A DNA stretch of 34,314 nt, taken from contig CAMYID010000022.1 in assembly GCA_947258435.1 (NCBI GenBank), positions 332,279 through 366,592 of the forward strand, read 5' to 3'. Position 1 is the first letter of the stretch; each line of letters starts with the position of its first letter. The position numbers were made by a program, and so were the translations under genes. Below the pieces are notes generated by a model. That model ran no database searches. It worked only from the letters and a program-made list of their open reading frames with translations, and was not told the DNA's origin. The DNA comes from an uncultured Alphaproteobacteria bacterium. Lineage in GTDB: Bacteria; Pseudomonadota; Alphaproteobacteria; UBA11222. This document shows, one piece after another, positions 8,339 through 9,892 of this stretch.

Positions 8339-8453
8339 CAGCGCCGCCTAAACCATCCTCACACACAGATAGTTCGTGGCAGCAGATGATTTGTTGTGCA
8401 TCCCTTGCATGCTCCCTGCCGCAATGCGGGCAATTTGCCGCAGTCTTGGAAAT

Positions 8454-8467
8454 TTGATCCAGATCAA
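8454..8467. promoter_or_regulatory. FNR/Anr-type binding site upstream of ompW-like gene
   Basis: TTGATCCAGATCAA is an exact match to the FNR-family consensus TTGAT-N4-ATCAA, a perfect palindrome. Its centre is about 77 bp upstream of the chosen ompW-like start. OmpW in enterobacteria is known to respond to FNR, which fits. The transcription start cannot be placed from sequence, so activation versus repression is not settled. Confidence 0.75.
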
Positions 8468-8537
8468 GGCCATGCGCCGCGATCCATCCGACAAGAGCGA
8501 CAAAGAACAGTCGTATGTTTTCGGATGGAAGGGCGTG

Positions 8538-9218
8538 ATGGGCATAGGCGGAAAACCAGGTAATCTGCGGGCGATGGCGGCGCTTGCGGGAATGTTCGCC
8601 GTGGCATTTGCGGCCTTGCCATTGGCAACGCCGGCGGCGGCGCAGGACAGTGATGAACGCAGCCCCTGGCAGGTGCGGGTCAGGGCAACTGCCATCCTGC
8701 CTGACGAGGATGCCTCAATCGGGCCGGTGACCGGATCTGTTGATATCGAGGATGTGATCATCCCCGAACTCGACATCACTTATTTCTTCACCGATCACAT
8801 AGCGGCGGAACTGGTGTTGCTGATCAGCAATCATAACGTCGATTCAGCGCTGACCGGTGTCGGTAATGTGGATCTGGGGGAAGTCAACCTGCTGCCGCCG
8901 ACTCTGCTGCTGCAATATCATTTCCGGCCCGACCGGATCTTCCGCCCCTATGTCGGCGCAGGGGTCAATTACACCGTTTTCTGGGACGAAAATGCACCAG
9001 GCGGCGCGGTGACGAGCATCGATTACGACAATGCGGTGGGTTATGCGGTGCAGGCAGGGTTTGATTACGGGCTGAATGATAACTGGATGTTGAATCTGGA
9101 TGCGAAACGTTACTGGCTTGATACCGATGTGCGCATTATATCGGCTCTTGGTCCGCTGGGTGCCGATGTCGATCTCGACCCCTGGACGTTCAGCATCGGG
9201 CTTGGTTACCGCTTCTAG
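8538..9218 (+). CDS. OmpW-family outer-membrane beta-barrel protein
   Basis: This is a 226-residue protein from the ATG at 8538, preceded by GGAAGGG. An upstream extension to 8376 was rejected because it would include the FNR box and delay the signal peptide. Residues about 13–36 form a signal peptide ending PAAAQ. The mature chain has the OmpW-type features WQVRVRATAILPDED, DITYFFTDHIAAELV, FRPYVGAGVNYTVFW, alternating strands, and a terminal aromatic (GLGYRF), as needed for outer-membrane insertion. OmpW forms a small 8-stranded channel for hydrophobic solutes. It is followed 83 bp later by a haemoglobin gene on the same strand. Confidence 0.88.
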   Translation: MGIGGKPGNLRAMAALAGMFAVAFAALPLATPAAAQDSDERSPWQVRVRATAILPDEDASIGPVTGSVDIEDVIIPELDITYFFTDHIAAELVLLISNHNVDSALTGVGNVDLGEVNLLPPTLLLQYHFRPDRIFRPYVGAGVNYTVFWDENAPGGAVTSIDYDNAVGYAVQAGFDYGLNDNWMLNLDAKRYWLDTDVRIISALGPLGADVDLDPWTFSIGLGYRF

Positions 9219-9301
9219 GACTCGCGCATTAGGAGTGTTTGTGTAAGGAAGCTGCCGCAATATGTCGGTCAGTTCCCGAATTTCTGAAGGAAATAGTGAC
9301 G

Positions 9302-9793
9302 ATGGCGTTATCTGAAGAAACCAAGGCAATTATCAAGGCCACCGCCCCGGCGGTAAAAGAGCATGGCAAGGCGATTACCAGCCGGATGTATGAGATCGCG
9401 TTTACCGCGCGACCTGAATTCAAGCGGTTCTTCGTCAATACCTGGATGAAGCATCCGGTCGATGGCGGACCGCAGCCGGCACGTCTGGCGGAAGCGGTCT
9501 GTGCCTATGCGCTGAATATCGACAAGCTGGACGCGCTGGAAGGGCCGCTTGCCCATATCGCTCACAAACATACCGATACCCGCGTAATCGCCGAACAATA
9601 TCCGGTGATCGGGGCCTGTCTGTTGCAGGCGATCAGGGATGTGCTGGGCGAGGCGGCAACCGATGAGGTGATGGCCGCCTGGAGCGAGGCCTATGAATTT
9701 CTCGCCGATGTGCTGATCGAAAAGGAAAAGGCGATTTATCAGCAGGAAGATGCTGAAATGATGGCCAAGGCCCGGCAGGGGGGTGACAGCTGA
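9302..9793 (+). CDS. Single-domain bacterial haemoglobin (Vitreoscilla/flavohaemoglobin type)
   Basis: This is a 163-residue globin whose sequence aligns by eye with Vitreoscilla haemoglobin and with the globin half of flavohaemoglobin. Conserved residues are Tyr30 (B10), Gln58 in PQPARL (E7), proximal His90 in IAHKH (F8), Tyr100 in EQYPVIG (G5) and Glu142 in LIEKE. The stretch DVLGEAATDEVMAAWSEAY is characteristic. The FAD/NAD reductase domain is absent; the gene stops about 17 residues beyond the usual VHb end, leaving a charged tail. Start at 9302 is supported by alignment; AGGA lies about 10 bp upstream. Likely roles are oxygen handling or nitric oxide detoxification with a separate reductase. 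An FNR box lies upstream of the preceding gene. Confidence 0.93.
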   Translation: MALSEETKAIIKATAPAVKEHGKAITSRMYEIAFTARPEFKRFFVNTWMKHPVDGGPQPARLAEAVCAYALNIDKLDALEGPLAHIAHKHTDTRVIAEQYPVIGACLLQAIRDVLGEAATDEVMAAWSEAYEFLADVLIEKEKAIYQQEDAEMMAKARQGGDS

Positions 9794-9855: not shown

Positions 9856-9892
9856 AAAAACCCCGCGCGCATATATCTGGCGCGGGGTTTTT
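9856..9892. terminator. Strong bidirectional Rho-independent terminator
   Basis: A perfect stem AAAAACCCCGCGC / GCGCGGGGTTTTT surrounds an 11-base loop. It has a T-run on the plus side and, read on the minus strand, a T-run from the A-rich left side. It lies between the globin gene (plus) and the convergent SDR gene (minus) and should end both transcripts. Confidence 0.9.

Follow-up and report, generated by a model that had tools for sequence, protein, structure and literature searches.

How a haemoglobin gene comes to lie behind an outer-membrane channel gene, and whether one oxygen-sensing site could serve both, is the question raised by this locus. The window (the whole stretch of DNA analysed, 34,314 nucleotides from an uncultured alphaproteobacterium of the UBA11222 lineage) carries, in a scan of its sequence, a perfect FNR palindrome TTGATCCAGATCAA at 8454–8467 on the + strand, upstream of ompW; a globin gene follows ompW on the same strand after a gap of 83 bp. 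The conservation of this arrangement, together with an apparent natural deletion of ompW in a relative, points to one unit, and a shared low-oxygen unit for the two genes is likely on the sequence comparisons set out below.

The first gene (8538–9218, + strand) is preceded by an RBS-like GGAAGG (8527–8532, + strand) and encodes an OmpW-family outer-membrane barrel protein with a signal peptide. It matches PF03922 at E 1.1e-45 (156.5 bits against a curated cut-off of 24) over profile positions 6–195 of 195, a full-length barrel domain, and is the sole OmpW in the genome by profile search. The second gene (9302–9793, + strand) encodes a single-domain globin of the flavohaemoglobin/VHb type, 163 aa long, and is likewise the sole PF00042 globin found in the genome (E 1.1e-12). 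Its match to the flavohaemoprotein model NF009805 (E 6.6e-50, globin part only and below the model's cut-off) spans positions 2–146 of 399, with no reductase domain. Relatives in the PDB are the Ralstonia-type flavohaemoglobin (5.5e-32), thermoglobin (2.1e-31), and VHb (2e-27); “Vitreoscilla-type” is a fair label for the protein, to which VHb is no nearer than are the globin domains of flavohaemoglobins. Five residues that we take to be the proximal His (H90), Tyr B10 (Y30), Gln E7 (Q58), Tyr G5 (Y100), and Glu H23 (E142) are invariant in an alignment of four family members. Y30, H90, Y100, and E142 align with the Tyr, His, Tyr, and Glu of the Ralstonia flavohaemoglobin and Q58 falls in a gapped stretch of that alignment, such that the haem-pocket set of flavohaemoglobin/VHb-type globins is present with E7 as a tentative assignment.

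The gap between the two genes (9219–9301, + strand) contains an RBS-like GAAGGA at 9286–9291. A consensus scan of its + strand revealed no sigma-70-like promoter and no terminator-like site (a weak internal promoter could escape such a scan), and the RNA of the gap folds no better than shuffles. A strong hairpin terminator (−24 kcal/mol, z −4.7) is met only at 9856–9892, between the ompW–globin pair and a convergent SDR gene; an A-run and a T-run flank its two sides, and it could also serve the SDR gene. The outline given by the sequence-only reading (an exact FNR/Anr consensus match at 8454–8467, an OmpW-like porin gene from 8538, a Vitreoscilla-type globin 83 bp further on the same strand, the next terminator at 9856) is thus borne out, but flavohaemoglobin domains are at least as close to the globin as VHb is.

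The 2.88 Mb genome holds six perfect TTGATN4ATCAA sites where its base composition would predict ~0.9, and the reversed control pattern gave none in the same genome scan. Within the window, allowing one mismatch, two matches were seen against 1.2 expected, which is not significant; what gives the box weight is therefore its count over the genome and its conservation, not the window count, and it is on these two grounds (the window alone being insufficient) that we reject chance occurrence at 8454–8467. The palindrome is perfect in three relatives (G001, G002, and G004), and has one mismatch in a fourth (G005); in a comparison of two genera of the family, it forms the chief block of conservation within the promoter. 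The locus in this way shows two hallmarks of the alphaproteobacterial FNR regulon, a TTGAT-N4-ATCAA box upstream of a gene and conservation of that site across relatives.

At class II FNR promoters the box is centred at −41.5, and a conserved A 30.5 bases downstream of the centre of the box then occupies position −11. Across 45 box-bearing ompW promoters, an A at +30.5 is the strongest signal downstream of the box (73%), a spacing that fits class II activation. The corresponding A in the window promoter falls at 8491, inside a predicted −10 element GACAAG (8490–8495, + strand), from which a start site near 8502 would be expected; the weakness of this −10 element counts against our preferred explanation.

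A candidate protein for reading such a site is encoded in the genome. Profile search with the Crp-family helix PF00325 returned one protein, an FNR at L007 919–1668, with CAACPVREQALC close to the N terminus, another Cys in VLCGFP aligned with a Cys of a solved FNR, and the recognition helix YLGLTTETVSR; it therefore has both the four cysteines and the E..SR helix of FNR. Its nearest NCBIfam model is FnrL, at a score below the model's cut-off, and it would be a [4Fe-4S]-type FNR. The remaining clear Crp-like protein carries TTRETVAR in its helix but no N-terminal FNR cysteine motif, which leaves the window's organism with one good candidate reader of the box. An FNR-family regulator, whose absence had been named in advance as telling against the low-oxygen proposal, is accordingly in place.

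The family to which the window belongs is known from a handful of alphaproteobacterial MAGs, of which G001–G005 were compared with the window genome. G001, of the same genus, has box, ompW, and globin followed by the same downstream SDR gene. G004, of another genus, has box, ompW, and globin after lipB, whereas an enoyl-CoA hydratase gene lies upstream in the window's genus; the order is thus kept in two genera whose upstream genes differ. In G002, lipB and the box are followed by the ompW start and signal peptide fused to its apparent last codons, and then by the globin (L020/L064). It seems that a deletion took nearly all of ompW, sparing box and globin, and profile search found no OmpW over cut-off elsewhere in this genome; G002 is a single low-coverage MAG (apparent contig L064, cov 4.28) in which an assembly fault is possible. 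The 64% complete G005 presents the reverse case, with lipB, a one-mismatch box, ompW, and the SDR gene, and no globin between the last two. Neither a globin nor an OmpW match was found in G003. The box is retained with the surviving gene, be it the globin (G002) or ompW (G005), and this is the best available argument that it would serve both, resting as it does on MAGs.

Box and close FNR part company in the sister genus. That genus shares the box, yet G002–G005 gave no FNR relative with an E value of 1e-20 or lower, which counts against our preferred explanation, and because the box is kept there without a close FNR, another Crp/Fnr protein may read it. In G002, G004, and G005 there are Crp/Fnr proteins whose helix is of the KETFSR type and whose cysteines cluster at the C terminus (CGECSVAEEC, for example), a clustering reminiscent of Bacillus subtilis Fnr; no match to this type was seen in the window's own genus, bearer of the classical FNR. 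A further protein of G004, distantly FNR-like, combines N-terminal cysteines with HVSR in its helix, and Dnr-like Crp/Fnr proteins are also present in the sister genus. Paralogues in which a C-terminal cluster replaces the N-terminal one beside an FNR-like E..SR helix were noted at L182, L185, L186, L187, L190, L191, and L195. A more elaborate history, which we put forward tentatively and regard as doubtful, is that the globin was captured by a pre-existing FNR–ompW unit and that, in the sister genus, the box outlived classical FNR and came to be read by other Crp/Fnr proteins, some with the C-terminal cysteine cluster, the unit being kept while its sensor was replaced.

In a class-wide survey, 81 of 289 alphaproteobacterial genomes gave OmpW matches. 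The upstream regions of ompW outside the family numbered 69, and 42 of them have a box with at most one mismatch (17 of the 42 being perfect), whereas 19 letter-permuted palindromes gave 0–2 in these regions, shuffles averaged 0.9, and 276 other stretches taken from these ompW loci gave six. The box is more frequent in genomes with a close FNR (31/39, against 10/26 without; Fisher p 0.0014, a guide only, the genomes not being independent), an association that is not significant under looser criteria. A wider alphaproteobacterial pairing of ompW and globin was considered and rejected, no globin ORF being found near ompW outside the family (flanks of ~1.5–3 kb, shorter at contig ends). The survey for box-bearing pairs proposed in the sequence-only reading thus yields them in two genera of one family, within which relatives keep either gene alone. 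FNR-type control of the pair, which that reading had envisaged as a low-oxygen module, remains likely; a special partnership between channel and globin is not supported, as the box belongs to ompW class-wide without the globin (PMC2908626). With the box widespread at ompW and the globin absent there outside the family, FNR–ompW would be the old part and the globin a lineage-specific addition.

Related globins elsewhere occur in other settings. No FNR box was found before those of Synechococcus, and none with fewer than two mismatches in the 400 bp upstream of six sphingomonad plasmid globins. The latter, ~50% identical to the window's protein and likewise single-domain, differ from it in having no ompW beside them; they adjoin Rrf2-family or Crp/Fnr regulator genes (L197, L200, L201, and L202), in one case a Crp/Fnr regulator with a nitric-oxide reductase gene alongside. 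Several Sulfurovum and Sulfurimonas single-domain globins (L071, L074, and L078) are preceded at ~70 bp by an FNR-like palindrome identical or close to TTGAYAATTRTCAA; at L069, L072, L075, L077, and L079, a palindrome with two mismatches lies ~70 bp before the globin match. Some of these globins adjoin a cNMP-binding-type regulator gene.

The explanation that we consider probable is a two-gene unit, induced at low oxygen under the genome's own FNR. FNR, active when oxygen is scarce, would bind 8454–8467 and activate a class II promoter, and a single transcript would run through ompW and globin to the terminator. The FNR–ompW half would be ancestral and class-wide, the globin having been added behind ompW in a small alphaproteobacterial family and so brought under the same switch. 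As to function, O2 handling or NO removal is most likely, in a cell whose sole PF00115 match is a CtaD-type (aa3) haem-copper oxidase; the same profile search gave no match for a cbb3 oxidase or for NorB, with which a role in oxygen supply would fit. A role against NO is suggested by analogy with the plasmid relatives, whose neighbors are either Rrf2-family regulators or a Crp/Fnr regulator together with a nitric-oxide reductase gene, and these NO-linked contexts count against the preferred explanation.

The same contexts favor an alternative in which the unit is mainly NO-responsive, the globin acting as an NO dioxygenase and the box being read by an NO-responsive Crp/Fnr protein, or control being lifted by NO damage to the FNR cluster; the grouping of the globin with flavohaemoglobin globin domains and the Dnr-like proteins of the sister genus would also suit it. 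We hold this to be unlikely, given that the one Crp/Fnr protein found with an FNR-type helix in the window genome is a cysteine-bearing FNR, that PF00115 detects no NorB there, that no reductase partner adjoins the globin, and that ompW has the same box class-wide with no globin behind it. This last observation, and the box before ompW without a globin in G005, would also be expected if the box controlled ompW alone and the globin had its own promoter in the gap, their adjacency having no regulatory meaning. Although 83 bp has space for a promoter, we judge such an arrangement very unlikely: the + strand of the gap has neither a promoter-like nor a terminator-like site, the gene order persists across two genera whose genes upstream are not the same, and in G002 the globin still stands behind the box after loss of the ompW body. 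There remains the sign of regulation, in that the box could be a repressor site through which FNR shuts off both genes in anoxia. In E. coli, FNR acts on ompW as activator and as repressor alike, from two sites at −81.5 and −126.5 (PMC4886647). The window promoter shares with that of E. coli an OmpW under direct (here predicted) FNR control, but has a single, closer box and a globin behind, and the A that ompW promoters conserve at the −11 spacing agrees with class II activation; FnrL, moreover, strongly activates ompW in Dinoroseobacter (PMC5398030). We accordingly give repression very little credence.

The regulated core of the preferred low-oxygen unit is already known, both FNR–ompW and FNR–vgb having been published. 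ompW is predicted in the core alphaproteobacterial FNR regulon, and FnrL binds the ompW promoter in Rhodobacter sphaeroides (RSP2507; PMC2908626), a system like the present one in its box before ompW, class II spacing, and cysteine-bearing FNR, but with no globin behind ompW and with cbb3 oxidase, not found by PF00115 in the window genome, as a main target. Sphingopyxis ompW is anoxia-induced (PMC7713065), and Herbaspirillum ompW1 is one of the Fnr-regulated promoters (PMC5934665). Vitreoscilla vgb is a flavohaemoglobin-type single-domain globin under FNR control (PMC8398370), as is predicted here, yet is served by a promoter of its own, where sites for FNR, ArcA, Crp, and OxyR lie, whereas the window's globin is second behind ompW. 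A literature search to which subscription journals were mostly closed returned no report of an ompW–globin unit; the globin riding on the FNR–ompW unit, seen in the window's family alone, appears new but modest. Interest is thus moderate, the core regulation being published. If our explanation is correct, a haemoglobin gained oxygen control by joining a gene with an existing FNR site, not by evolving a site of its own; the survey adds a count of the FNR–ompW linkage over a wide alphaproteobacterial sample, and the family supplies natural variants, with either gene lost, for probing what the box serves.

Two further observations concern the box and its surroundings. Other perfect boxes of the window genome lie near flavin-containing monooxygenase-like and glutathione-S-transferase-like genes (L005 and L006), and are found again near these genes in G001, the sister species (L041 and L046). 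In ompW promoters, the window's included, the 60 bp before the box are enriched in a TGYCGCA-type motif; CRTTNNGNCGC with at most one mismatch occurs there in 14 of 45 box-bearing promoters, against 3.3 in shuffles. Examples stand upstream of ompW at L057, L058, L107, and L133, and at 8417–8442 in the window, where TGCCGCA lies 11 bp before the box (8436–8442, + strand) with a second copy at 8417–8423. From its enrichment, and as a lead only, TGCCGCA at 8436–8442 may be a site for a further regulator, perhaps a redox-responsive one, the motif resembling RegR/RegA-type sites.
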